A stretch of DNA of 28,408 bases from a virus. A program made the position numbers and the translations under genes. Positions 7,169 to 25,067 of this stretch are shown here, in pieces (the first letter of the stretch is position 1; every line of letters begins with the position of its first letter). The notes under the pieces are model-generated. The model saw only the letters and a list, made by a program, of their open reading frames with translations. It made no database searches and was not told the DNA's origin. The DNA lies in the IMG/VR virus record IMGVR_UViG_3300031758_000433, positions 1 to 28,408 of that record; one strand, 5' to 3'.

Positions 7169-7438
7169 ATGCAAAGAACAAAAATAATTGCAACAGAAGT
7201 TGCAATGCCAACAACTGCAGGCGCTGCTTCCAGTATTAGTGAAGCAACTTGCGTAAGATTATACAATGGTTCTGGTGCTGCAGCTACGGTAAGTATTTCA
7301 ACTGCTGTTGGAGCTGCAACAACCAATTCATTCACAATGGCTACAGGTGATGTTGAATTTCTTCAAAAAGCTGCAACGGATGTAATTTTTGCATCTTCTG
7401 CGTCTGTGAAAGCTGCCAAAGTAGGACTTACCAACTAA
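7169..7438 (+). CDS. Small probable virion protein, function unknown
   Basis: An 89-residue protein rich in A, T, S and V, with alternating hydrophobic and polar residues (VRLYNGSGAAATVSI, FTMATGDVEFLQK) typical of a small beta-sandwich. It has no signal peptide, membrane segment or catalytic motif. It has its own late promoter and sits between prohead core gp67 and protease gp21, inside the head-assembly block. T4 has gp68 here, but this composition does not resemble the charged core protein gp68. A capsid accessory or decoration role is an inference from fold type and position. Confidence 0.75.
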   Translation: MQRTKIIATEVAMPTTAGAASSISEATCVRLYNGSGAAATVSISTAVGAATTNSFTMATGDVEFLQKAATDVIFASSASVKAAKVGLTN

Positions 7439-7443
7439 GAACC

Positions 7444-8094
7444 ATGAAACTAATTACCGAAGAAGTAACGAATGTAAAAATTATCACTGAAGGAAAAGGT
7501 GATAATAAAAAACTTTATATTGAAGGAGTATTTCTCCAAGGAGAAATTAAAAACCGTAATGGGAGAATGTATCCCATCACTGTTCTCTCTCGTGAGGTTG
7601 ATCGTTATAATGAACAGTTTGTATCTAAAGGTCGCGCTTTAGGAGAACTCGGACACCCCGATGGTCCTACTGTAAACCTTGATCGTGTTTCACATAAAAT
7701 CACTTCTCTCACTCAAGAGGGAAATAATTTTATCGGTAAAGCACAAATTTTGAATACTCCAATGGGAAAAATTGCATCCTCACTTCTTGATGAAGGTGTA
7801 ATGCTTGGCGTTTCTTCTCGTGGTGTTGGTTCACTCCAAACAACTAGTGAAGGTCACAAAGTAGTTGGTGAAGATTTTATGCTTGCTACTGCAGCTGATA
7901 TCGTCGCTGATCCTTCTGCTCCAGATGCTTTTGTTTCTGGAATCATGGAAGGAAAAGAGTGGGTTTGGGAAGGTGGAATCCTTCGTGAACAACTCGTTTC
8001 AAAAACTCAAAAGAGAATTAATACTCTTGTTGATCAAAGAAGACTTGATGAACAGAAGTTAAATCTGTTTAATGAGTTTTTATCAAATCTATAA
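7444..8094 (+). CDS. 21: Prohead core scaffold protein and maturation protease gp21
   Basis: A serine protease assembled inside the prohead that degrades the scaffold and trims gp23. The 216 residues are close to T4 gp21 (212). Herpes-protease-like catalytic residues are visible: His in GELGHPDGP (H71) and Ser in LGVSSRGVGS (S124/S125). The NRNGRMYP motif near residue 37 is typical of the family. The start lies 5 bases after the preceding stop, so it shares a transcript with the small gene upstream. T4-type specificity is L/I-x-E followed by A, G or S; candidate sites appear in gp23 and in the repeat protein at 19596. Confidence 0.95.
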   Translation: MKLITEEVTNVKIITEGKGDNKKLYIEGVFLQGEIKNRNGRMYPITVLSREVDRYNEQFVSKGRALGELGHPDGPTVNLDRVSHKITSLTQEGNNFIGKAQILNTPMGKIASSLLDEGVMLGVSSRGVGSLQTTSEGHKVVGEDFMLATAADIVADPSAPDAFVSGIMEGKEWVWEGGILREQLVSKTQKRINTLVDQRRLDEQKLNLFNEFLSNL

Positions 8095-8139: not shown

Positions 8140-9315
8140 ATGTCCCGTGGTAAGAATTTACAAGAAATGGAAACCGGCACTTCACAATCCAAAACTGCTG
8201 TAAACGCTAATGCAGCTGCAGCAGAAGCACCACACAAGAGTGCAACCCCTGTTGCAACTCCTGGACAAACTGGTGCTTGGGAAGATCTTGGCGGTCCAAC
8301 CCCAGAAAACAGTCGTCCAGATGACAACTCAAATACTTTAAAAACTCCAGGTGCAACCCTGAAGCAAGTTAAAGATGTTGTCAATGCTAAAGCTGCTGCA
8401 GCTGAAGCTCCTCAAACTTCTGCAACTCCTGTTTCAACACCAGGTCAAGGTGGTGGAATGAAGGAAGAAGTAGAAGAAGATGAGGATCTAGTTGAAGAAG
8501 AAGAAACTGAAGCGACTGAAGAAGAAACAGAAGCAACAGAAGAATCTGAAGAGGGTGCTGAAGAAGTGGTAGAAGAAGATGTAGATTCTATCATTGAAGA
8601 GGATGTAAATGCTCTCCTATCTGGCGAAGAAGAACTCTCCGAAGAGTTTAAAGAAAAGGCAAAGCTTGTATTTGAAGCTGCCCTTCACGCCAAAACAAAA
8701 GAAATTCAATCAGTAATGGAAGAGCACTATGCTACTGCTCTTGCAGAAGAGGTTGAAGAAATTAAACTAGAACTAACCGAGCGTGTTGATTCATACCTAG
8801 AGTATGTTGCATCCGAATGGTTAGAAGAAAATGCTCTCGCAGTTGAAAGTGGTCTCAAAACTGAGATCACCGAGTCCTTCATCAATGGTATGAAGGGACT
8901 TTTTGAAGCACATTATGTATCAATGCCTGAAGAGAAATATGATGTTCTAGAGAGCATGGTAGAAAAACTTGATGAAATGGAGACAAAACTCAACGAGCAA
9001 ATTCAAAGAAATATTGCTCTTAACAAGAAACTTGCAGAATCTGCTGCTGACAGCATTTTCAATCAGGTTTCCGAGGGTCTCGCTCTTTCCCAAAAGGATA
9101 AGCTTGCAAGCCTCGTAGAAAGTGTTGAGTTTGAGAGTGAAGATGACTATTACCAGAAACTGGTAACTCTTAGGGAGTCTTATTTCCCAAGAAATGCTGG
9201 TATTCCAGCAAACGAGACGGAAAATCTATCAGAAGAAGCGAATTTCCAAGAGGTGACTCATTCACCTTCTATGGACGCTTATTTGCGTGCGCTTTCCAAC
9301 GTTGCTAAAAAGTGA
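8140..9315 (+). CDS. 22: Major prohead scaffolding core protein gp22
   Basis: Forms the internal scaffold of the prohead and is removed by gp21. The 391 residues exceed T4 gp22 (269). The N-terminal third (residues 1-105) is A, P and T rich and holds an internal duplication. Residues 108-170 are strongly acidic with E-rich runs. The rest is predicted long helix and coiled coil (EKAKLVFEAALHAKTKEIQ; LDEMETKLNEQIQRN), which is the conserved core of the family, ending near MDAYLRALSNVAKK. It sits between protease and capsid genes as in T4. A late promoter precedes it. Confidence 0.93.
   Translation: MSRGKNLQEMETGTSQSKTAVNANAAAAEAPHKSATPVATPGQTGAWEDLGGPTPENSRPDDNSNTLKTPGATLKQVKDVVNAKAAAAEAPQTSATPVSTPGQGGGMKEEVEEDEDLVEEEETEATEEETEATEESEEGAEEVVEEDVDSIIEEDVNALLSGEEELSEEFKEKAKLVFEAALHAKTKEIQSVMEEHYATALAEEVEEIKLELTERVDSYLEYVASEWLEENALAVESGLKTEITESFINGMKGLFEAHYVSMPEEKYDVLESMVEKLDEMETKLNEQIQRNIALNKKLAESAADSIFNQVSEGLALSQKDKLASLVESVEFESEDDYYQKLVTLRESYFPRNAGIPANETENLSEEANFQEVTHSPSMDAYLRALSNVAKK
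8200..8448 (+). repeat. Internal 23-residue duplication in gp22
   Basis: Residues 21-43 (8200-8268) and 81-103 (8380-8448) of gp22 share 19 of 23 residues, with the common core AAAAEAP..SATPV.TPGQ, spaced exactly 60 codons apart. DNA identity is lower than protein identity, implying an old duplication kept by selection. Confidence 0.85.
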
Positions 9316-9375: not shown

Positions 9376-10770
9376 ATGGACGGAATTAATTCACAAATGT
9401 TAATGGAGAAGTGGGCTCCAGTTCTAGACTTCGACGGTCTAGGAGAAATCAAAGATTCCCACAGACGTGCAGTAACTGCACAAATGCTCGAGAACCAAGA
9501 GAGAGAACTCCGTGAGTCTGCTGAGTTCCTCGGCGAAGCTTCCCCAGTTAACTCTGCCGGTACCGGTGGATTTAGTGGTGGTGCTACTGCTGGTGGTCCA
9601 GTTGCTGGTTTCGATCCAGTTCTAATCAGCCTCATTCGTCGTTCGATGCCTAACCTCATCGCTTATGACATCTGTGGCGTTCAACCAATGAGTGGTCCTA
9701 CTGGACTCATCTTCGCAATGCGTTCCCGCTACGATAACCAGTCTGGTACTGAGACCTTCTTCGATGAAGTAGATACCACCTTCTCTGGTCAGAACAACAG
9801 CCGCAACCTTTCCAGCGGATTCTCCGATGGTCTAGTTGGTTTCGGTACAACCAACCAGGATGGAACCAATCCTAACGTTCTCAATCCAGTTGGAACCGCA
9901 ACAACCAACCCATCTCCATACAACGTTGGTCAGGGTATGGCGACTGGTGAATCAGAAGCTCTTGGAGATGCTGCTGCTAATGCCTTCAACCAGATGGCAT
10001 TCAGCATCGAGAAGGTAACCGTAACTGCTAAGTCACGCGCCCTCAAGGCTGAGTATTCACTAGAACTCGCTCAAGACCTCAAGGCAATTCATGGTCTAAA
10101 TGCAGAAGCAGAACTTGCTAACATTCTCTCCACTGAGATCCTCGCAGAAATCAACAGAGAAGTTATCAGAACCATCTATAAGGTTGCTGAGCAAGGTGCT
10201 GCTGTTAACACCGCTACTGCTGGTGTATTCGACCTTGACGTTGACTCTAATGGTCGTTGGTCCGTTGAGAAGTTCAAGGGTCTACTCTTCCAAATCGAGC
10301 GTGATGCTAACGCAATCGCACAAAGAACTCGTAGAGGAAAGGGCAACACCATCATCTGTTCTGCAGACGTTGCTTCCGCACTAACCATGGCCGGTGTACT
10401 TGATTACACCCCTGCACTCAACGCTAACCTTAACGTTGATGACACTGGTAACACCTTCGCTGGTGTTCTCCAAGGTAAGTATCGTGTATACATTGACCCA
10501 TATGCTGCTAACGTTGCTGCTGATCAGTACTACGTTGTAGGTTATAAGGGTTCTAGCGCATATGATGCTGGTATCTTCTACTGCCCATATGTTCCTCTCC
10601 AGATGGTTCGTGCCGTCGGTCAGGACACCTTCCAACCAAAAATTGGCTTCAAGACCCGTTATGGTATTGTTGCCAACCCATTTGCAGAAGGAACCGATCA
10701 GGGACTCGGAAGACTCCGCCTCAATGCAAACCGTTACTACAGAAGAGTCAAGGTTTCCAACCTCATGTGA
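9376..10770 (+). CDS. 23: Major capsid protein gp23
   Basis: Builds the head hexamers. The 464 residues are shorter than T4 gp23 (521). Diagnostic blocks are RRSMPNLIAYDICGVQPMSGPTG near residue 89, KVTVTAKSRALKAEYSLELAQDLKAIHGL near residue 213, and FKTRYGIVANPF near the end. FLGE|AS at residues 51-56 fits the gp21 cleavage rule, so the mature protein probably starts at A55; T4 gp23 is cut after E65. Codons are strikingly more C-ending than in neighbouring genes, as expected for the most abundant virion protein. GAGG 11 bases upstream of the ATG may serve as the ribosome binding site. Confidence 0.98.
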   Translation: MDGINSQMLMEKWAPVLDFDGLGEIKDSHRRAVTAQMLENQERELRESAEFLGEASPVNSAGTGGFSGGATAGGPVAGFDPVLISLIRRSMPNLIAYDICGVQPMSGPTGLIFAMRSRYDNQSGTETFFDEVDTTFSGQNNSRNLSSGFSDGLVGFGTTNQDGTNPNVLNPVGTATTNPSPYNVGQGMATGESEALGDAAANAFNQMAFSIEKVTVTAKSRALKAEYSLELAQDLKAIHGLNAEAELANILSTEILAEINREVIRTIYKVAEQGAAVNTATAGVFDLDVDSNGRWSVEKFKGLLFQIERDANAIAQRTRRGKGNTIICSADVASALTMAGVLDYTPALNANLNVDDTGNTFAGVLQGKYRVYIDPYAANVAADQYYVVGYKGSSAYDAGIFYCPYVPLQMVRAVGQDTFQPKIGFKTRYGIVANPFAEGTDQGLGRLRLNANRYYRRVKVSNLM

Positions 10771-15574: not shown

Positions 15575-17258
15575 CTTTCTTTCTACTGGAAATCAATTTA
15601 CCGAAGTAAATTTTCAAGACGCTAAGACAAACTTAATTGTAGGAACTAATGGTTCCGGTAAGAGTACAATTCTTGATGCTCTTACTTTTGTTTTGTATAA
15701 TAAACCATTCAGAAAAATTAATAAACCACAACTTATTAATTCTGTGAATGAGAAGGACTGTCTTGTAGAAATTGAATTTGATATTGGTAATAAAAATTAT
15801 AAAGTTGTGAGAGGTATCAAACCAAATATTTTTGAAATTTGGATTGACGGGACAATACAAAATCAAGACTCTGCAGCTCAAGATCAGCAGAAAAAGTTAG
15901 AAGAAAATATTTTAAAACTTAATTATAAATCTTTCACCCAAACAGTCATCTTAGGTTCGGCTACATTCGTCCCTTTTATGCAATTAACTTCTTCCCATCG
16001 TAGGGAAATTGTAGAAGATCTTTTAGACATTAAGATTTTTTCTACAATGAACAATATCTTAAAAGAACGAATGCGTAAAACAAATGAACTCATTCGTGAA
16101 TATTCAATCAAGAAAGACATGATTGAAGATAAGATTGAAATGCAAGAGAACTTTATTAAGAATCTTGATGAAAGTGGTAAAGAAAGAATCCAAAAGAAAA
16201 AAGATAGTATTAAATTTATTGAGAATGAAATTGATGAATTGAATACTGATAATGAAGGAATTTCAATGATGATTGAAAAAGAACTTCAACCAAAGTTGGA
16301 AGAACTTACTAGTACAAATTCAACTCTAAAGAAACTTAATTCTATCAAGGCAAAACTAGAACAAAAGATTCAAACTCTTGTCTCTGAACATAAGTTTTTT
16401 CAGGAAAATACGGTTTGTCCTACTTGTACCCAAAGTATAGAGAATGAATTTCGCTTAAATAAGATTGTCGATATCGAGGAGAAATCCAAAGAACTCAATG
16501 ATGGATACCGAGAGTTGGAGGATGCCATCAATGTAGAACAAGAGAAAGACCAACAATTTTTATCTTATTCTACGGAGATTAGTAAACTCAACAATGACAT
16601 TACCACAAACAATGTTAAGATTACTGGGCTTAACAAACAGATCAGAAATCTTGGACATGAAATTCAAGAAATTACCGAACAAATTCAAAACAGAAATACT
16701 GAGCGTAAAACCCTTGAAAACTTAATAAAAGATCTAGACAAAATAGAAAAAGATAGATCTAACGAAAAGGAACAGATTAGTTACTACGATTTTGCTCATT
16801 CATTGATGAAAGATGGTGGAGTGAAGTCTAAAATCATCAAAAAGTATCTGCCTCTTATGAATCAGCAGATAAACAAGTATCTACAGATGATGGACTTCTA
16901 CATCAACTTTACACTGGATGAAGAGTTTAAGGAGGTTATTAAGTCACCAGTTCATGAAGATTTTAGTTATGAGTCATTTAGTGAAGGTGAGAAGATGCGT
17001 ATTGACCTTTCTCTCTTATTTACTTGGAGAGACATTGCCAAACTTAGAAATTCGGCCAGTACAAATCTTCTCATCCTAGATGAAATTTTTGATAGTTCTT
17101 TAGACGGAGCAGGAACAGATTTCTTCACAAATATTATTCGTTATGTCATTCAGGATGCTCATGTATTTGTGATTTCACATAAGACGGATGATCTTATGGA
17201 TAAGTTTGAAAAAGTGATAAAATTTGATAAAATTAAAGGATTTAGTAAAATGGTGTGA
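15543..17258 (+). CDS. 46: Recombination nuclease subunit gp46 (Rad50-like ATPase)
   Basis: The SMC-like ATPase partner of gp47. The 571 residues match T4 gp46 (560). Walker A GTNGSGKST is at residues 34-42 and the Q-loop region SFTQTVILGSATFVPFMQL follows near 130. Two coiled-coil arms flank a zinc-hook CPTC at 292-295. The ABC signature FSEGEKMRIDLSLLFTW is near 480, and Walker B LLILDEIFD has D513-E514. HVFVISHK is the switch histidine segment. Start choice follows alignment to T4. The stop lies inside the hairpin at 17254-17277. Confidence 0.97.
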   Translation: MILFKTIRWRNFLSTGNQFTEVNFQDAKTNLIVGTNGSGKSTILDALTFVLYNKPFRKINKPQLINSVNEKDCLVEIEFDIGNKNYKVVRGIKPNIFEIWIDGTIQNQDSAAQDQQKKLEENILKLNYKSFTQTVILGSATFVPFMQLTSSHRREIVEDLLDIKIFSTMNNILKERMRKTNELIREYSIKKDMIEDKIEMQENFIKNLDESGKERIQKKKDSIKFIENEIDELNTDNEGISMMIEKELQPKLEELTSTNSTLKKLNSIKAKLEQKIQTLVSEHKFFQENTVCPTCTQSIENEFRLNKIVDIEEKSKELNDGYRELEDAINVEQEKDQQFLSYSTEISKLNNDITTNNVKITGLNKQIRNLGHEIQEITEQIQNRNTERKTLENLIKDLDKIEKDRSNEKEQISYYDFAHSLMKDGGVKSKIIKKYLPLMNQQINKYLQMMDFYINFTLDEEFKEVIKSPVHEDFSYESFSEGEKMRIDLSLLFTWRDIAKLRNSASTNLLILDEIFDSSLDGAGTDFFTNIIRYVIQDAHVFVISHKTDDLMDKFEKVIKFDKIKGFSKMV

Positions 17259-17277
17259 CAGTTTAAAAAGTGTCACA
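17254..17277 (+). repeat. Palindromic hairpin TGTGACA-N10-TGTCACA at the gp46 end
   Basis: A perfect 7-base inverted repeat (17254-17260 / 17271-17277) around a GTTTAAAAAG loop, containing the gp46 stop. The core CAGTTTAAAAAGTGTC (17259-17274) recurs in inverted orientation at 23876-23891. Role unknown; it could be a protein-binding site or an mRNA-end stabiliser. Confidence 0.7.
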
Positions 17278-17302
17278 AGGGGTCTAATCAGACCCCTTTT
17301 TT
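17277..17302 (+). terminator. Rho-independent terminator after gp46
   Basis: Stem AAGGGGTCT (17277-17285) / AGACCCCTT (17290-17298) with loop AATC, followed by a T tract to 17302. It separates the gp55-gp47-gp46 operon from the VWA gene. Confidence 0.92.
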
Positions 17303-17334
17303 CATGTAATATAGCCACATACGAAACAAAGTTC

Positions 17335-19545
17335 ATGTCTGTTAATCACGAAGTCAAAGGTCATCTTGCCCGTCTCCTCGCTACTGAAGATCTGGTGGTG
17401 GAACACAAACACGTTCCCACTGCGTCTTTCAATGTGGATACTCGTGTCCTGATTCTCCCGATGTGGGAGAAGGCTTCTAACGTTGTCTACGATATGCTTG
17501 TTGGTCATGAAGTGGGTCATGCACTTTATACTCCTAACGAGGACTGGAGTGAAAAGTTTTCCATCCCACAACAATTTGTGAATGTTACGGAAGATGCTCG
17601 TATTGAAAAGTTGATGAAACGTAGGTATGCGGGTCTCAATAAGTGTTTTTATGCGGGTTATCGTGAACTTCACGAGGATGATTTTTTCCAAGTAAAGGAA
17701 GAAGATATTTCTAAGTTTAATCTTGCAGATCGTGCCAATCTTTACTTTAAGATTGGTAACTACATTGATATACAGTTTAATCAGGAAGAACAAGAAATCA
17801 TCACTATGATTGGTGATGCAGAAACTTTTGATGAAGCGATTCAAGCTGCGGTAAAACTTTATGAGTACTGCAAGAAAGAACAGGATCAACAAATGAAGAT
17901 TGATTCTATTGATACAGTGGAACAAAATTCTGGAAACAGTTCAGAACCTTCCTCAGAACCCCAAGAAGAATATTCGGATCAGAATACACTTGAAACCTCT
18001 GGTGAAGGTGGCCAGACTCCTTCTGATGGTGAATCGGGGGATGATATTGATCAACCTTCTAAGGGAACTTCAAATCAGGGTGGAGAGACTTCTGATCCTA
18101 AAGTCCATACTGCAGATAATTTGGAAGAATCTATTCGAGATCTTGTCAACAGCTCTTCGTATGAAAATGTTTATGTGGAACTTCCCAAACTTAATCTAGA
18201 AACTGTCATTGCATCTAATTCTGAAGTTCATGATGAAATTAATGATTGGTGGAACAAATCAGTAGAATCTCTTAGTAAGAGTCAATCTAATGCTAAGGAA
18301 TTTTTGTTTGGAAAAATTGATAAAGATTTTCGAGAGTTCAAACGTTCTGCTCAGAAAGAAGTTAACTACTTGGTGAAAGAGTTTGAATGTCGGAAAGCTG
18401 CAGATTCATACGCTCGTTCCACTACTGCTCGTACTGGTGTTCTAGATTGTTCTAAACTTCATACTTATAAGTATAATGAAGATTTGTTCCGTAAGGTAAC
18501 CACTCTTGCAAACGGAAAAAATCATGGCCTAGTGTTTGTCCTGGACTGGTCTGGCTCAATGTCAAATGTGATGCAGGATACAATCAAACAACTTTATAAT
18601 TTGATTTGGTTCTGTAAGAAGGTTTCTATTCCCTTCGAAGTTTATGCATTTACTAATGAGTGGCGTCGTAGTACATATGACGAAAAGGGAAACTTTATGA
18701 GGATGGAACCACACTATCAAAAGAAATCTGGACTCATCTGTGTAGATGAAACATTTTCCATGATGAATCTTTTTACTAGTAAAGTAAATAATCGTGTTCT
18801 GGAAGAACAAATGATTAACATTTATCGCATTGCTAAAGAATTTAAGTATTCTTATAATGATGCTCCAATGTATAATACTCCGACTAGACTACTTCTTTCT
18901 GGAACTCCTTTGAATGAAGCTTTGATTGCAATGCATCAAATTTTGCCTAAGTTTCAAAAGGAAAATAAACTCCAGAAAGTTCAATGTGTAGTTTTAACCG
19001 ATGGTGAAGCTTGTTATATGAAGTTTCACAAAGAGTTTAAAAATCGTTCTGTTGATGGTGGAGAACCTTATATTGGATTGAACTCTCTTAATAGTCACCC
19101 TACTTTCATTCGTGATCGTAAAACTGGCTGTACTTATAAAGTACCATTTGAATTTCATCAATTTACGGACACTCTTCTTCAGAACCTTCGTGATCGTTTT
19201 CCTTCTGTGAATTTTATTGGTATGCGGGTTCTTGAAAATCGTGAAGCTAATTCTTTCATTCGTAAGTATTACGATAATTATGAATATAGTTCTGGTTATG
19301 CTCAAGACAATAAAGAATATGTAAAAATCATGAATGATTGGAAAAAGAATAAATCTTTTTCAATTAAAAATTCTGGTTATCATTCTTACTTTGGCCTTTC
19401 TGGTTCGGCACTTTCTCAAGATTCTGAGTTTGATGTTCATGAATGTGCAACAAAATCCCAAATTAAATCTGCATTCGCAAAGTCTCTAAAGAGTAAGAAG
19501 ATGAATAAAAAAATTCTTGGTGAGTTTATTGATCTTGTTGCTTGA
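17335..19545 (+). CDS. HEVGH metallopeptidase-like and VWA domain protein (CobT-like)
   Basis: A 736-residue protein of four parts. Residues 1-120 hold GHEVGHALYTP (H58, E59, H62), the HExxH zinc-peptidase motif, followed by VTEDARIEKL (E86), a plausible third ligand as in gluzincins. Residues about 195-260 are an acidic, low-complexity S, E, D, G linker. Residues about 395-570 form a VWA domain with MIDAS residues D404-x-S406-x-S408 in LDWSGSM, T524 in GTPLNE and D556 in LTDGEA. The remainder is helical and basic. Acidic linker plus C-terminal VWA is the CobT layout; its expected partner, a CobS/MoxR ATPase, is encoded at 23964. The ATG at 17335 is the first after the terminator. Substrate is unknown, and cobalamin synthesis is not supported because CobN is not seen. 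Confidence 0.88.
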   Translation: MSVNHEVKGHLARLLATEDLVVEHKHVPTASFNVDTRVLILPMWEKASNVVYDMLVGHEVGHALYTPNEDWSEKFSIPQQFVNVTEDARIEKLMKRRYAGLNKCFYAGYRELHEDDFFQVKEEDISKFNLADRANLYFKIGNYIDIQFNQEEQEIITMIGDAETFDEAIQAAVKLYEYCKKEQDQQMKIDSIDTVEQNSGNSSEPSSEPQEEYSDQNTLETSGEGGQTPSDGESGDDIDQPSKGTSNQGGETSDPKVHTADNLEESIRDLVNSSSYENVYVELPKLNLETVIASNSEVHDEINDWWNKSVESLSKSQSNAKEFLFGKIDKDFREFKRSAQKEVNYLVKEFECRKAADSYARSTTARTGVLDCSKLHTYKYNEDLFRKVTTLANGKNHGLVFVLDWSGSMSNVMQDTIKQLYNLIWFCKKVSIPFEVYAFTNEWRRSTYDEKGNFMRMEPHYQKKSGLICVDETFSMMNLFTSKVNNRVLEEQMINIYRIAKEFKYSYNDAPMYNTPTRLLLSGTPLNEALIAMHQILPKFQKENKLQKVQCVVLTDGEACYMKFHKEFKNRSVDGGEPYIGLNSLNSHPTFIRDRKTGCTYKVPFEFHQFTDTLLQNLRDRFPSVNFIGMRVLENREANSFIRKYYDNYEYSSGYAQDNKEYVKIMNDWKKNKSFSIKNSGYHSYFGLSGSALSQDSEFDVHECATKSQIKSAFAKSLKSKKMNKKILGEFIDLVA

Positions 19546-19565
19546 GGGGGAAACCCCTCTTTTTT
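19544..19565 (+). terminator. Rho-independent terminator after the VWA gene
   Basis: Stem GAGGGG (19544-19549) / CCCCTC (19554-19559) with a GAAA loop and six T residues. The TGA stop of the VWA gene overlaps the stem's first bases. Confidence 0.92.
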
Positions 19566-19566
19566 A

Positions 19567-19573
19567 CTAAATA
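19567..19573 (+). promoter_or_regulatory. Late promoter (CTAAATA) for the repeat protein
   Basis: CTAAATA resembles the late box (six of seven bases of ATAAATA) and lies 22 bases before the ATG at 19596, directly after the terminator. It overlaps an 8-base inverted repeat AAATACTT (19569-19576) / AAGTATTT (19580-19587). Confidence 0.55.
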
Positions 19574-19595
19574 CTTACAAAGTATTTGTAAAAAA

Positions 19596-20882
19596 ATGGA
19601 CTTTAACGACCTGCAAAATCTGACAGAAGCTTATAACCAAGTTAATCAACAACTTGATGAAGCAGAAGGTTCTTATGGTGAAACTCCAAAGGCATATGCT
19701 GCAGCATCAAAAACCAAGATGACTGCAAAGAGAAAGCCTTTCCTCAAGAAAATGCTCAGAAGAACTAATCCTGCAGAAAGAAGGCCTGAGACTTCTCCAA
19801 GAAAAGGAATGACTGCTTCTGATAGAGAGGAAGCAAGAGCAGGTGCAGCACATGGTTCTCCTCGCGGTCATGATTATCCTTCAGAGGGTCCTGGTGGAAT
19901 TACTAAGAATCCTAAGAAACTCCGTAAGCAAAAAGCAATGGGTGAGTTTGCTAAAGAAGATTTTGAACTTTGGGTGGAGTCTCTTGTAGAAGAAGGTTAT
20001 GATCTATCCGAGTACACTTGGGATGACATGCTTGATATCTATGAAGCAGAAGGTTCTTACGGTAAGACACCTAAAGCAAGACAAGCAATGGGTAAACTTG
20101 CTATCGCAAGACGTGAGAAACCCGCAAGTGAGTATTCTCAGAAAGGTGAGAAGACTAAGAAAGTAAAGGCAATTGAGAAGCATACTCAGAGAATTGATAA
20201 TGGTCCTGATGCAGGAAATCGTGGTAAGAAATCTACTAAACCAAGATGGTCTGGTATGTTGGGTAAATCTGGTAGGGGTAAACTTGACCAAGATAGCAGA
20301 GATTATGCGAGAGATAGTGCTGTTGAGTACACTGCTGGTGGACACAAGCCAGGTCCTGGTACAGTAACCAAGAATCCTAAGAAACTCCGTAAGCAAAAAG
20401 CAATGGGTGAAATTGATGAAAGTTACAACACTTATCAAGTAGTTCTTTCGCATTTACTTGAGGAAGGATATGCTTCAAATGAAGAGTCTGCAGATAAAAT
20501 CATTCTTAATATGAGTGAATCTTGGTTTGCAGAAATTATTGAAGCACGTAGGATGGATACAGAAGGTTCTGATCGTGGAGATTCGGCTCGTGCGGAACGT
20601 GCAGAAAAAGCAAAATCTTCCTTTATGGCTGCGAAAAAAGGTAAAGAGACCAGACTAAAAGCAGGTATTACTAACCTTCAACATAAGGCTGAGAAAGAAC
20701 ACTCTAAGAACTTTCCTGGTTCAAGACAAGAACCAAAAGTAAAGGGTGAAAAAGAATCCCCAGAGGAAGAACAGAGAAGAAAGGCTACTCGTCATAACGA
20801 AAGAGTTATGAAACATGGATTTACCGAAAAGGAAAAGAAAGAATCAAAAGCGAGAGAAAAATATGATTCATCTAGAGATTGA
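19596..20882 (+). CDS. Modular acidic/basic repeat protein, candidate internal head protein
   Basis: 428 residues built from alternating acidic helical modules and long basic, probably disordered arms. Acidic modules are residues 1-27, about 116-155 (EDFELWVESLVEEGYDLSEY) and about 273-320. Basic arms contain KRKPFLKKMLRR and twice the segment TKNPKKLRKQKAMGE. Each acidic module ends in a site fitting gp21 prohead-protease specificity: LDE|A (E22), IYE|A (E150) and IIE|A (E316); LTE|A at E11 also fits. The first two junctions are followed by AEGSYG and the third by a related TEGSDRG. A leading short acidic helix cut off by gp21 is how T4 internal proteins are targeted to the head. Function as a DNA-associated internal protein is inferred. 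The first in-frame ATG after the terminator is used. Confidence 0.82.
   Translation: MDFNDLQNLTEAYNQVNQQLDEAEGSYGETPKAYAAASKTKMTAKRKPFLKKMLRRTNPAERRPETSPRKGMTASDREEARAGAAHGSPRGHDYPSEGPGGITKNPKKLRKQKAMGEFAKEDFELWVESLVEEGYDLSEYTWDDMLDIYEAEGSYGKTPKARQAMGKLAIARREKPASEYSQKGEKTKKVKAIEKHTQRIDNGPDAGNRGKKSTKPRWSGMLGKSGRGKLDQDSRDYARDSAVEYTAGGHKPGPGTVTKNPKKLRKQKAMGEIDESYNTYQVVLSHLLEEGYASNEESADKIILNMSESWFAEIIEARRMDTEGSDRGDSARAERAEKAKSSFMAAKKGKETRLKAGITNLQHKAEKEHSKNFPGSRQEPKVKGEKESPEEEQRRKATRHNERVMKHGFTEKEKKESKAREKYDSSRD
19905..20410 (+). repeat. 41-base perfect direct repeat inside the repeat protein gene
   Basis: The 41 bases at 19905-19945 and 20370-20410 are identical (starting AAGAATCCTAAGAAACTCCG and ending GGTGA), 465 bases apart and in frame. 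They encode KNPKKLRKQKAMGE. Related flanking repeats encode AEGSYG(E/K)TPKA near 19662 and 20046. Confidence 0.9.
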
Positions 20883-20893
20883 TTAAATAAATT
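20883..20893 (+). promoter_or_regulatory. Possible degenerate late promoter before the gene at 20916
   Basis: TTAAATAAATT contains TTAAATA and AATAAATT, each one base off the boxes seen elsewhere in the window. It overlaps the upstream stop region as other late boxes do. Distance to the GTG start is 22 bases. Confidence 0.35.
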
Positions 20894-20915
20894 ATTATAG
20901 TATTTGAGGTTTATT

Positions 20916-21875
20916 GTGGAGTTTTTTGAAAAAGATAAACATGTAAAATTTATTTTTGAGTTACAAAATGGACAACCACTTCAACTAACTTACTATTTGC
21001 AACCAAATAGTTTGAGGGAAAAGTGGTTGAATGAAGTTAAAACATATCTCAACCGAAGTAATGCATCACTCAATCTCAAAATATCAAATAAAAATTATTT
21101 ACATTTAAATGAATTAACTGAAAAAATAAACTCAATAGTGAAGGATATCAATACTGCATATAATTCTAATATGTTGAGTTTTTTGAGTGGAACGAGTGAT
21201 GCAAATAGGGAAAAACTGAATAGTTTACATGAAAAATTTGAAGAATATGGTGCGGATAAAAAATTATATCTTGGTGAAGATGTTCATAGACTTTGGTTGG
21301 ATTTAAATGAATGGATTCATGTAACAGAAGTTGCAATGGGTACAACTGTGAAAGATTTTCCAGAATACAGTGCCTTAGTGTCTGTTTATCCGCCATATGA
21401 TGGTAGGAGATTGGAAGAAAAAGATAAATTATTTTTAACTACTGATTTCTCGTGGGGGCATCTTTATCTCGGATATAACACCTTAGGTAAAGACTACATG
21501 CACGCTTGTCATGATGATGATGTTAGAGTTGTTACAAATAAACAAGTAAAAGTTCAACAAAGGTATAGTTCTGAGGTATGGCTTTGTTTTCAGAATAAAA
21601 CGTATTGCCAAAAAACAACTGAGTTACAATTCTATAAGTGGTATGAAACTATAGAACAAGAAGCTCAGGAAATAATTCCTATTGAGAATTTAAATGCTCT
21701 AGCTTTAGGTAGATATTTTCTTGGACATATTGTAATTGATGATGATCTGTTAAGATTTCATCCAATTGAGGACGATTGGTATTTTAATACTGAAGTTCAA
21801 AAAAGGTGGAACAATGAAGTCTTTTCTCAAATTAAAAGGGTAGTAGAAATTGAAATAGATGAACAAAATAATTGA
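20916..21875 (+). CDS. Conserved-looking protein of unknown function
   Basis: About 319 residues starting at GTG 20916, preceded by GAGG at 20906-20909 with good spacing; a TTG 12 bases upstream is less likely. I do not recognise a named family. The first half is helical and charged. The second half has a compact, likely beta-rich block with SWGHLYLGYNTLGKDYMHAC, CHDDDVRVV, and SSEVWLCFQNKTYCQ, which looks like a folded domain with paired cysteines and histidines (HACHDDD), possibly metal binding. The gene overlaps the next by 17 bases, so the two are probably translated together and work together. No signal peptide or membrane segment is visible. Confidence 0.72.
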   Translation: MEFFEKDKHVKFIFELQNGQPLQLTYYLQPNSLREKWLNEVKTYLNRSNASLNLKISNKNYLHLNELTEKINSIVKDINTAYNSNMLSFLSGTSDANREKLNSLHEKFEEYGADKKLYLGEDVHRLWLDLNEWIHVTEVAMGTTVKDFPEYSALVSVYPPYDGRRLEEKDKLFLTTDFSWGHLYLGYNTLGKDYMHACHDDDVRVVTNKQVKVQQRYSSEVWLCFQNKTYCQKTTELQFYKWYETIEQEAQEIIPIENLNALALGRYFLGHIVIDDDLLRFHPIEDDWYFNTEVQKRWNNEVFSQIKRVVEIEIDEQNN

Positions 21876-23871
21876 AACATTTATAGAAAACTCATTGGAG
21901 AATCAGTGGTATCCCCCAAATTCTTCAAAACAATTCAATGTATTTGACTCAGATTGGCCTTTTCTTCAAATAGATTTTTCTGATGACTTTGAAGAAATGC
22001 ATCAAGAATGCATTGATAATGATCATCTTTTTGTGGGTCATAGGCAGAAAGATAAACATCTAAGTTATTCTCATGAAGGTTGGTCTGCTTTAACTTTACA
22101 TGGAATACGTCCAGATGCTACTGAAAATTATGATCAATATGGACTGACTGAACCAGATTATGATTGGACAGAAGCTTGTGTATATTTTCCTACTTGCGTT
22201 AAATTTTTAAAAAAATTGGGATATGGTAGTTACGATCGAGTAAGGATCATGAAACTATCTCCTGGTGGATACATTATGCCACATTCTGATGGTGATGGTA
22301 GAATTTTTGGTCCTTTGAACATAGCAATTAATAATCCTGATGGATGTAATTTTTACTTTGAAAAATGGGGAAAAGTTCCTTTTAGTCAAGGGACAGGATT
22401 TTTTTTAGATATAGGAAATGTTCACGCTGTTTTTAATAATAGTGATGAACCTAGATATCATTTTATTGTTCATGGATCTATTAATAATAATTTAATACAA
22501 ACAGCATTTGATCAACTTAAAACTCGAAAGAAACGGGTATGTTACGGGGTTTATAATCAACGAAATAGGATTAATAATTTTTCGATGTACCTAAGATCCA
22601 AAGGTGCAACCTTATTTTATCTCAACAGATCTAGAAGTAATGTAGATATAATTTGTGGAGATGAAATACATGAGATATTGAATGAAGCTTTAATTAAAAA
22701 ATATGAGTATTGTGTGATTCAATCTTCTGGATGTACTTTGAAGAGTTTTGATTATGATAAAGAAATTAGAGATTTTATAAATGAAAATAATTTTGGTATA
22801 GCTGGACATATATTATCTTGGCCTGGGAGGTGGTTGGAATTACACCACCAATTTTTTATAGTCAACGTTTCTGCATGGAAAGAAGTTGGATGTCCGGAAT
22901 TTGGTGATTGGTGTTCTGAAGAACAATTATTACCTGTAGTTGAAAGAAGTATTGAAAACTTTCATGATGACTATACTCCATTGTGGGTTAAGTATTCAAA
23001 CAAACAAGAATACCAATCTAACGCTGGACAGGGTTGGAAACTTTTGAGTTCTATGTTTTTAAATGATTGGCCAGTAATAACTTTGAGCGAAAAATTACGT
23101 TTTAATAAGTTTTATTATTATCCAGAATTTAATACTGAAAAGTTTGAATCAAGTATTAAAACTTTAACTCCATATGAAGGTCAGAATTGGAATCAAGTAA
23201 AGTTGATAAATGATGCAAAATCAGTAAAAGATCAAATATGGTTATTTAATAGTGAATCAATGTCAATTAATAATGAAGGTAAGTTTAATTTAGTTGTAAA
23301 TACTGCAAGTGGATTTAAGTTGTTTGATATTTTTAAAAATAAAAAATTGGACTTAAATGGTAAAATTATTGTATATGATTTTAATATTAAAAGTATACAA
23401 TGGTATAAACACTTACATACATGGAAGACAAATGATATTGTAGAATGTATCAAATCTTTTTCCGAAAAGGATTATTTTACTTGGTTGGGGAAAACAGATC
23501 ACTCAAGATTTGTAATGGATCATAGTTTTGATTTATCAATCAAAGAACTTATGGACCATTTTGGTGGAACCGAATCATTTATTAAGTATTGGTCAGTCTT
23601 TAAAAAAACTCCTACAAAGTTTGTTGTTGCTGATTTGTATAAAGAATCTCAAAAGTTTGCAAATATTTTTGTTGGACCTGGGAAAAAATTTGTAAATCTT
23701 TCTAATATTTTTTCTACCGATGCTACCACTTTGTTATATGGACATACAGAAGTTCAGAGTTGTCAACAAAGATGTTTAGCTTCTTTGTATGTTGTTGATC
23801 CTGAAATAGAAGTTTCTATTTGTGACTTTTGGAATAGAAACATTTTTGGTAAAGTAAAAAATATCTTGTAG
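21859..23871 (+). CDS. Multidomain 2-oxoglutarate/Fe(II) oxygenase-like protein
   Basis: A 670-residue protein. Residues about 100-210 look like an aspartyl/asparaginyl beta-hydroxylase-type oxygenase: RIMKLSPGGYIMPHSDGDG gives the H142-x-D144 iron pair, NVHAVFNN gives the distal H189, and EPRYHFIVHG gives R199 for 2-oxoglutarate. Residues about 220-350 form a second region with KYEYCVIQSSG and GHILSWPGRWLELHHQFFIVN, of a type I cannot name securely, perhaps glycosyltransferase-like. Residues about 480-540 have a Rossmann-like run, VVNTASGFKLFDIF then GKIIVYDFNIKSIQWYKHL, reminiscent of class I methyltransferases but with a poor glycine loop. Substrate is unknown; modification of a protein, glycan or nucleic acid are all possible. 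No ribosome binding site is visible; the start overlaps the upstream gene. Confidence 0.78.
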   Translation: MNKIIETFIENSLENQWYPPNSSKQFNVFDSDWPFLQIDFSDDFEEMHQECIDNDHLFVGHRQKDKHLSYSHEGWSALTLHGIRPDATENYDQYGLTEPDYDWTEACVYFPTCVKFLKKLGYGSYDRVRIMKLSPGGYIMPHSDGDGRIFGPLNIAINNPDGCNFYFEKWGKVPFSQGTGFFLDIGNVHAVFNNSDEPRYHFIVHGSINNNLIQTAFDQLKTRKKRVCYGVYNQRNRINNFSMYLRSKGATLFYLNRSRSNVDIICGDEIHEILNEALIKKYEYCVIQSSGCTLKSFDYDKEIRDFINENNFGIAGHILSWPGRWLELHHQFFIVNVSAWKEVGCPEFGDWCSEEQLLPVVERSIENFHDDYTPLWVKYSNKQEYQSNAGQGWKLLSSMFLNDWPVITLSEKLRFNKFYYYPEFNTEKFESSIKTLTPYEGQNWNQVKLINDAKSVKDQIWLFNSESMSINNEGKFNLVVNTASGFKLFDIFKNKKLDLNGKIIVYDFNIKSIQWYKHLHTWKTNDIVECIKSFSEKDYFTWLGKTDHSRFVMDHSFDLSIKELMDHFGGTESFIKYWSVFKKTPTKFVVADLYKESQKFANIFVGPGKKFVNLSNIFSTDATTLLYGHTEVQSCQQRCLASLYVVDPEIEVSICDFWNRNIFGKVKNIL

Positions 23872-23894
23872 TGGACACTTTTTAAACTGGCACA
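23871..23894 (-). repeat. Inverted copy of the gp46-end hairpin motif
   Basis: Read on the - strand this matches 17254-17277 at 20 of 24 bases, with CAGTTTAAAAAGTGTC identical over 16. It lies immediately after the oxygenase stop. The palindromic arms are less perfect than in the first copy. Confidence 0.6.
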
Positions 23895-23896
23895 AT

Positions 23897-23920
23897 ACCC
23901 CTTTCTTCTGGGGTGGTTTT
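23897..23920 (+). terminator. Probable terminator upstream of the CobS-like gene
   Basis: Stem ACCCC (23897-23901) / GGGGT (23910-23914) with an 8-base loop, then GGTTTT. The stem is short and the T tract weak, so partial termination is likely. A TATTAT at 23925-23930 might be a -10 element for the next gene, but no good -35 is seen. Confidence 0.5.
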
Positions 23921-23963
23921 CGCGTATTATAGCTTCAGTTGAAACACACCACCCAACCACATT

Positions 23964-25067
23964 ATGCCTCGCAAATCTCCTGTGACTGACGAACAACTCA
24001 TTTCTGATCTCAAAAATCTCTATGGTACTGAAATTAGTGCTGGGGATATTCGAGGTTTCTGTGCCTCTCGTAATATGAATTACCAGACCGTAACTCGTCG
24101 TCTGGAATCTTTCAAGACTACTCGTGGTCGTTGGAATCTGGAAGTGACTCAAGAACGTGTTGAAGAGATTGAGCGTTCTTATCAAGCACCTGCCGTTCTT
24201 CCTGCCGCTGAACAAAACCTTATTCCTGATAAAGATGATACCTTCGTCAAGTTTGGTAACTTTAACGATATTAAAAAGATTATTCAGTCCCGTATCTTTT
24301 ACCCTGCGTTCATTACGGGTCTTTCGGGTAACGGTAAAACGTTCTCGGTTGAACAAGCGTGTGCTCAACTCAAACGTGAACTGATTCGTGTCAACATCAC
24401 GATTGAAACGGATGAGGATGACCTGATTGGTGGGTTCCGTCTTGTTGATGGTGCTACTGTTTGGCACAATGGTCCTGTGGTGGAAGCACTTGAACGTGGT
24501 GCTATTCTCCTATTGGATGAGATTGATCTTGCTTCCAACAAGATCCTGTGCCTTCAATCTATTCTGGAAGGTAAGGGTGTGTTCCTTAAAAAGATTGGTC
24601 GCTTTGTGAAACCTGCTTCTGGTTTCAATGTGATTGCCACCGCCAATACCAAAGGTAAGGGTTCTGATGACGGTCGATTTATTGGCACTAACGTTCTTAA
24701 TGAAGCTTTCCTTGAACGTTTCCCCGTGACCTTTGAGCAGTCTTATCCTGCTCCTGCAACTGAACAAAAGATCCTGGAAGGCGTTGCTCTGGATCTTGGT
24801 GTGAAAGACCGTGACTTCTGCAAGCGTCTGGTGGACTGGGCAGACATCATCCGCAAGACCTTCTACGATGGTGGTATTGAGGAAATCATCAGCACCCGTC
24901 GTCTGGTTCACATCATCCGTGCATACGGCATCTTCCAAGACAAAGCAAAGGCAATCCAAGTGTGCGTCAACCGTTTTGATGATGAAACCAAACAGTCCTT
25001 CCTGGAACTGTATGATAAAGTGGATGCTGATTTCCAGATGCCCATTGACCAGGAAACACAATCCTGA
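23964..25067 (+). CDS. cobS: CobS/MoxR-like AAA+ ATPase
   Basis: A 367-residue ATPase commonly annotated cobS in T4-like cyanophages. Walker A GLSGNGKT is at 119-126, Walker B ILLLDEID has D185-E186, sensor 1 N228 lies in IATANTK, and a candidate arginine finger R252 lies in NEAFLERF, followed by a helical lid with STRRLVHI. The MoxR-type insertion TIETDEDDLIGGFRLVDG precedes Walker B. The N-terminal 75 residues look like a helix-turn-helix-like adaptor (DIRGFCASRNMNYQTVTRRLESF). CobS normally works with CobT and CobN; only a CobT-like VWA gene (17335) is present, so a remodelling machine with another target is as likely as cobalt chelation. Codons are more GC-rich than in the two genes upstream. 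Confidence 0.93.
   Translation: MPRKSPVTDEQLISDLKNLYGTEISAGDIRGFCASRNMNYQTVTRRLESFKTTRGRWNLEVTQERVEEIERSYQAPAVLPAAEQNLIPDKDDTFVKFGNFNDIKKIIQSRIFYPAFITGLSGNGKTFSVEQACAQLKRELIRVNITIETDEDDLIGGFRLVDGATVWHNGPVVEALERGAILLLDEIDLASNKILCLQSILEGKGVFLKKIGRFVKPASGFNVIATANTKGKGSDDGRFIGTNVLNEAFLERFPVTFEQSYPAPATEQKILEGVALDLGVKDRDFCKRLVDWADIIRKTFYDGGIEEIISTRRLVHIIRAYGIFQDKAKAIQVCVNRFDDETKQSFLELYDKVDADFQMPIDQETQS

Follow-up and report, generated by a model that had tools for sequence, protein, structure and literature searches.

A 428-aa protein encoded in the genome of a T4-like cyanophage is probably a late head protein, built of modules, that is targeted to the prohead core and processed by the prohead protease gp21. 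Its gene occupies positions 19596–20882 of a 28,408-base virus record (the window, i.e. the whole stretch of DNA analysed; coordinates are on its + strand unless another record is named). Long basic arms alternate with acidic modules along the chain, and candidate gp21 sites lie at the joints. The best reading, by analogy, is that the protein functions like the T4 internal or core proteins, without detected homology to IPIII or gp68. Sequence comparison, which covered IPIII among the T4 internal proteins (E 0.58) and gp68 among the core proteins (E 0.12), showed similarity in neither case.

Gene context, modules and candidate cut sites

The window encodes, in order, gp17, gp18, gp19, gp20, gp21, gp22 and gp23, then a uvsW-like helicase; it also carries gp47/gp46-like genes, a VWA/peptidase gene, cobS, a sliding clamp and a clamp loader. 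The T4 gene numbers, together with uvsY, gp55 and gp62, are putative and assigned by position. Because of this gene set, from gp17–gp23 through the clamp loader, we regard the phage as T4-like. Matches to the 428-aa protein occur in 152 phage records, which by name are Synechococcus phages, cyanophages or 'marine' phages. The head cluster includes the protease gp21 (7444–8094; phrog_207, E 4.5e-82; 44% identity to T4 gp21 over 148 aa), the scaffold gp22 (8140–9315), which has several hydrophobic-x-E|A/G/S sites (the bar marks the scissile bond), and the major capsid protein gp23 (9376–10770), with the propeptide site FLGE|ASP. The gene for the 428-aa protein is separate from gp22 and lies outside this cluster, starting 8.8 kb beyond the end of gp23, between the VWA/peptidase gene and cobS. 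The VWA/peptidase gene (phrog_459) has an HEVGH and a VWA-like motif and adjoins cobS in S-CREM1 and S-SZBM1. In the window (17224–25067), three genes separate the two: that for the 428-aa protein, 20904–21875, which has no family match, and 21859–23871, which encodes an Asp/Asn beta-hydroxylase domain and a long unknown part.

The reading frame holds 428 codons plus stop and fills 19596–20882 exactly, as the sequence-only reading had it. An upstream TTG (19542) was rejected as the start in favour of the ATG at 19596, because the stretch preceding this ATG contains a terminator-like hairpin with a T run behind it (19544–19559), which lies between the VWA/peptidase gene and this reading frame, and a conserved late-promoter-like box, ACTAAATA (19566–19573, 30 nt upstream of the ATG). 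The box has one mismatch to NATAAATA, given as the late promoter of cyanophage S-PM2 in the available part of PMC2984593. Such a box precedes all 26 N-terminally complete ORFs of the family, starting 27–35 nt upstream of the ATG (21 TATAAATA, 1 CATAAATA and 4 CTAAATA); exact NATAAATA occurs in 22, and the window's own, inexact box is counted within the 26. In the window, boxes lie ahead of 6/10 head, tail or packaging genes versus 0/14 others (Fisher p 0.0016), a count that leaves aside three genes, including that for the 428-aa protein, and in which the ORF at 7169–7438 is grouped by position alone. This 89-aa ORF, itself with a late-promoter-like box, lies between a gp67-like ORF and gp21; two small proteins labelled virion protein, S-SCSM1_38 and S-SCSM1_39, occupy the equivalent position.

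The chain opens with a targeting-like peptide (residues 1–11; 19596–19628) ending in LTE|A at E11, followed by residues 12–22 (19629–19661), which end in LDE|A at E22, as delimited by the site scan and junction comparison. Next come basic cassette 1, of the EGSYGETPKAY type (residues 23–115, net charge +14; 19662–19940), and acidic module 1, of W-type (116–150, net –12; 19941–20045), which ends in IYE|A at E150. Basic cassette 2, of the EGSYGKTPKAR type (151–272, net +18; 20046–20411; defined by sequence and charge), leads to acidic module 2, of N-type (273–316, net –9; 20412–20543), ending in IIE|A at E316. A basic C-terminal cassette beginning RRMDTEG (317–428, net +10; 20544–20882 with the stop) completes the protein. 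The three sites named in the sequence-only reading (E22, E150 and E316) and the basic arms between modules are thus present as described. Of its three acidic modules, two stand, but the first is merely the 22-residue N-terminus. AEGSYG does follow E22 and E150, but TEGSDRG starts five residues past the third cut, where the sequence is IIE|ARRMDTEGSDRG.

Scanning for strict [LI]xE|[AGS] sites gave six, with P1 at 11, 22, 150, 275, 290 and 316, compared to a mean of 0.9 in 10,000 residue shuffles, none of which reached six. LTE|A (E11), IDE|S (E275) and LEE|G (E290) had been overlooked earlier. E11, E22, E150 and E316 terminate N-terminal or acidic segments, while E275 and E290 are located within acidic modules or at their edges. 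If gp21 cut at 22, 150 and 316, every acidic module would remain attached C-terminally to the basic arm before it, giving predicted fragments with net charges of +2 (23–150), +9 (151–316) and +10 (317–428). The earlier picture of a gp21-cut, polyprotein-like head protein is likely right in kind, given the conserved sites, the encoded gp21, gp22 and gp23, the late-promoter-like boxes and the reports of similarly built relatives in virions. Its 'basic fragments' are too simple, since 23–150 and 151–316 are basic arms that carry an acidic module.

An AlphaFold2 model (14 sequences; mean pLDDT 64, pTM 0.21) predicts beads on a string without a global fold. Helices are predicted at 118–132 and 142–153 in acidic module 1 (block pLDDT 79–85) and at 279–290 and 296–305 in acidic module 2 (86–93). 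The arms, cassette 1 among them, are mostly of low confidence, and the last 40 residues form a confident helical segment. PHROGs 1784 (over 280–428), 3708 and 27516, all of unknown function, match parts of the protein. A Pfam search returned no match, and a search of solved structures nothing usable (best E 0.037, mei-1 chains).

Targeting-like signals and relatives reported in virions

According to the available text of PMC9026906, T4 gp21 cleaves after L/I-X-E, and the T4 internal proteins each carry one short, N-terminal targeting propeptide ending in L/I-x-E (10–19 residues in the IPs, 7 in Alt, which is additionally cut C-terminally). T4 ipII and ipIII start MKTYQEFIAE|A, and T4 gp23 has FLTE|AEI, in the region occupied by FLGE|ASP in the window's gp23; gp23 of four cyanophages has LTE|A (three) or LAE|A. 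The 428-aa protein resembles IPI, IPII, IPIII and Alt in having a short N-terminal peptide that ends in L/I-x-E|A (E11, E22), and in coming from a T4-like phage with a protease of the same family; its gene, with the late-promoter-like box, is putatively of late type. It differs in carrying more than one targeting-like module and more than one cut site, both within the chain and at its N-terminus, in the spacing of hydrophobic positions (P6/P3, versus P7/P4/P3 in T4) and in the shuffling of cassettes among such cyanophage proteins.

Are the acidic modules also targeting signals? We infer that they are, mainly because a targeting-like [ST]FSxFME|A segment can fill the same slot. The tail ARRMDxEG, which follows IIE|A in the 428-aa protein, is preceded by SFSxFME|A in five relatives and by TFSQFME|A in one more, and these six have no acidic module there.

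A related signal is found on an enzyme. NMNAT-like (NMNAT/cytidylyltransferase) N-termini have an aromatic residue at P7, F at P4, L/I at P3, E at P1 and A at P1′ in 5/5 sequences, from S-CREM1, S-SZBM1, S-CREM2, S-SCSM1 and S-RIM2 (loci L002, L005, L081, L082 and L083). NMNAT-like proteins are reported in virions of S-SZBM1 (PMC9146016), S-CREM2 (PMC10665884) and S-SCSM1 (PMC9602691) in the accessible portions of these papers. Hence the signal tracks head loading, by correlation, and its exact T4-type capsid-targeting spacing would explain why NMNAT is in virions. These proteins (S-SZBM1_140, S-SCSM1_91, S-CREM2 gp154) share with the 428-aa protein an N-terminus that ends in the same cut signal, but each is an enzyme with a single N-terminal targeting-like site, rather than a multi-module chain.

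Several relatives of the 428-aa protein are themselves reported in virions. The short relative S-SCSM1_89 is annotated as 'virion protein', and PMC9602691 reports 45 S-SCSM1 proteins found by mass spectrometry. Its plan is familiar: MDSKTFNSLSE|AYAAVY, a basic arm, an acidic module ending ILDE|ARRADKEG and a basic tail. BLASTP E-values are 4e-14 to L068 and 1e-6 to P0001. S-SZBM1_139 and S-CREM2 gp160 are distant relatives that have stretches in common with family ORFs in a BLAST comparison run with neither low-complexity filter nor composition correction, so that its E-values are optimistic for such charged proteins; the virion tables, as far as available, list 4 peptides for the former (PMC9146016) and 7 for the latter (PMC10665884). 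S-CREM2 gp155 and gp136, also detected in virions, were considered as relatives and rejected, as they show no similarity to the family. In S-SZBM1_139 (L081, 6989–8362) and S-SCSM1_92 (L083, 45061–46623), both reported as virion proteins, an acidic stretch gives way to a long tract that is rich in Ala and Lys and resembles histone H1; proteins of this type are possible DNA-condensing internal proteins.

The closest relative among phages with a published virion list, S-SZBM1_194 (48.6% over 424 aa), is absent from the 30-protein S-SZBM1 virion table as given in the available text of PMC9146016. This absence counts against the head-protein reading, and it would fit a core or scaffold component that is cut up and expelled, like T4 gp22 and gp67/gp68, leaving little or nothing in the mature head; the core would be organised by alternating charge. 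Such a role is a sub-case of the gp21-substrate reading, with the fate fixed. Many cut sites per protein point the same way, and T4 core proteins are cleaved to multiple fragments, most of which leave the head (PMC9026906, available text). Like gp22, gp67 and gp68, the 428-aa protein has acidic segments and several gp21-type sites per chain, but it also has long basic arms, and the window's phage encodes a gp22 of its own. Against expulsion stand the virion reports for S-SCSM1_89 and for two more distant relatives, S-SZBM1_139 and S-CREM2 gp160, and shuffled cassettes are unlike a conserved scaffold. We regard this fate as rather unlikely.

Candidate cut signals at shuffled junctions

The bare motif is unspecific, because the S-CREM1 genome holds 118 strict sites versus 60.5 expected and several of its tiny ORFs outrank the module proteins. 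Charge maxima (acid-to-basic) fall within 3 residues of a strict site in 52 of 227 cases, compared to 15.9 expected, a modest coincidence. Three motif matches alone were thus rejected as proof of cutting, and the argument was placed instead on conservation of the junctions under shuffling.

A set of 70 loci, extended by those from named phages and by the window, gave 64 distinct related ORFs, all counted by script and part of them also read by eye. Cassette patterns were picked by eye after the ORFs had been read, and exclude the residues ahead of the joint. The ORFs have a mosaic make-up, in which N-terminal or acidic segments of five kinds precede cassettes of eleven kinds in 24 combinations. 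Hydrophobic-x-E is found at 73 of 74 distinct junctions, across all 11 cassette types, although the counts come from related ORFs and are non-independent. The comparison of sites across homologs, suggested in the sequence-only reading, thus shows them kept at junctions while the modules shuffle. P1 is E in 73/74, and P3 is I (32), L (30), V (6), F (5) or S (1), so that L/I make up 62/74, compared to a background of 17%. P2 is more variable (D at 34, then M, Y, L, G and others). P1′ is A at 54 and G at 12; there is counter-evidence here, with I, V or L at six junctions (I 3, V 2, L 1) and E at one, K also occurring once. The single miss has the context KSSRPR, probably no cassette start, and was retained in the count. 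EGSYG cassettes are preceded by hydrophobic-x-E at 35/35 junctions (L/I at P3 in 33), and [LI]xE, corresponding to the E11 site, ends 21/21 distinct N-termini. In its conserved P3 and P1 and free P2, the junction pattern matches the T4 gp21 rule, as far as sequence can tell.

Could the joint be conserved as DNA rather than as a protease site? The protein would then be an uncut virion or assembly protein, with hydrophobic-x-E|A marking where an acidic helix ends and where cassettes preferentially recombine. In the EGSYG joint the E-A part is mostly GAA GCA and the E-A-E part almost invariant, and direct repeats of 38 and 69 nt span the joints of the gene; the 69-nt repeat D1 has copies at 19887–19955, covering the KNPKKLRKQKAMGE stretch, and at 20352–20420 (87% to the first). 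An E-G with a hydrophobic residue two positions before it is also common in the family: in the control, the EGY motif inside acidic modules, P3 is L/I in 18/40 and any of LIVFM in 31/40, which is less strict than the junctions yet an imperfect negative, since those 31 fit hydrophobic-x-E|G. On the other side, P3 and P1 are kept while P2 is free whichever segment type (N-terminal, W, A, N or V) meets whichever of the eleven kinds of cassette, which is protease-like, and the same pattern occurs in gp22, gp23 and NMNAT N-termini. Eight different codons encode the P3 residue ahead of EGSYG, and this argues for constraint at the protein level and not solely for a copied DNA joint. On balance, an uncut protein seems unlikely. 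At the DNA level, the KNPKKLRKQKAMGE segment is highly conserved wherever present (46 copies in related ORFs, in 30 distinct forms) and could be a recombination joint for cassette shuffling.

An unpackaged intracellular protein that binds nucleic acid or takes over the host is very unlikely: the arms are basic and partly disordered and the gene lies between the VWA/peptidase gene and cobS, away from the head cluster, but the late-promoter-like box and upstream terminator-like hairpin, an N-terminal LxE|A that resembles capsid-targeting peptides, and the relatives reported in virions all argue against it.

Proposed pathway and implications

If the 428-aa protein is a core-targeted gp21 substrate, its gene would be transcribed late, from the T4-like late promoter, whose sequence is observed and whose activity is presumed. 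Binding to the gp22 core would come next, with the N-terminal peptide and both acidic helical modules serving as repeated capsid-targeting sequences, a step proposed because of the T4 IPIII precedent and the exchange of acidic module and [ST]FSxFME|A before the same cassette. On the basis of the cleavage rule and of conservation, gp21 would cleave after hydrophobic-x-E at E11, E22, E150 and E316. The released arm-plus-module fragments may remain with the DNA, be ejected or exit the head. Over evolution, near-identical KNPKKLRKQKAMGE and EGSYG DNA may recombine, swapping cassettes between genes and phages, with selection preserving the cut signal at the junctions.

That relatives keep the cut signal while shuffling modules suggests a swappable head-loading system. 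What is new relative to T4, whose internal proteins have a single N-terminal propeptide in the available text of PMC9026906, is the apparent use of multiple addresses and cuts per protein, shuffled among proteins. No description of such an arrangement was found in titles and abstract openings of literature on this arrangement and on cyanophage virion proteomes. A bolder version is possible, though doubtful: a combinatorial head-cargo system whose polyprotein combines acidic 'address' modules with basic payload cassettes, both interchangeable, and in which several capsid-targeting modules load the prohead and gp21 frees several payloads to be injected with the DNA. If this were true, cassette swaps at cut-site joints would allow fast change of the injected protein set. 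A shuffled, multi-address, multi-cut version of the T4 internal proteins would account for many 'hypothetical' cyanophage genes; one short family member has matches in 246 of 50,697 phage records. It would also yield a sequence rule that predicts head-carried cyanophage proteins, virion NMNAT included, and the question of what cyanophages inject would become directly testable.
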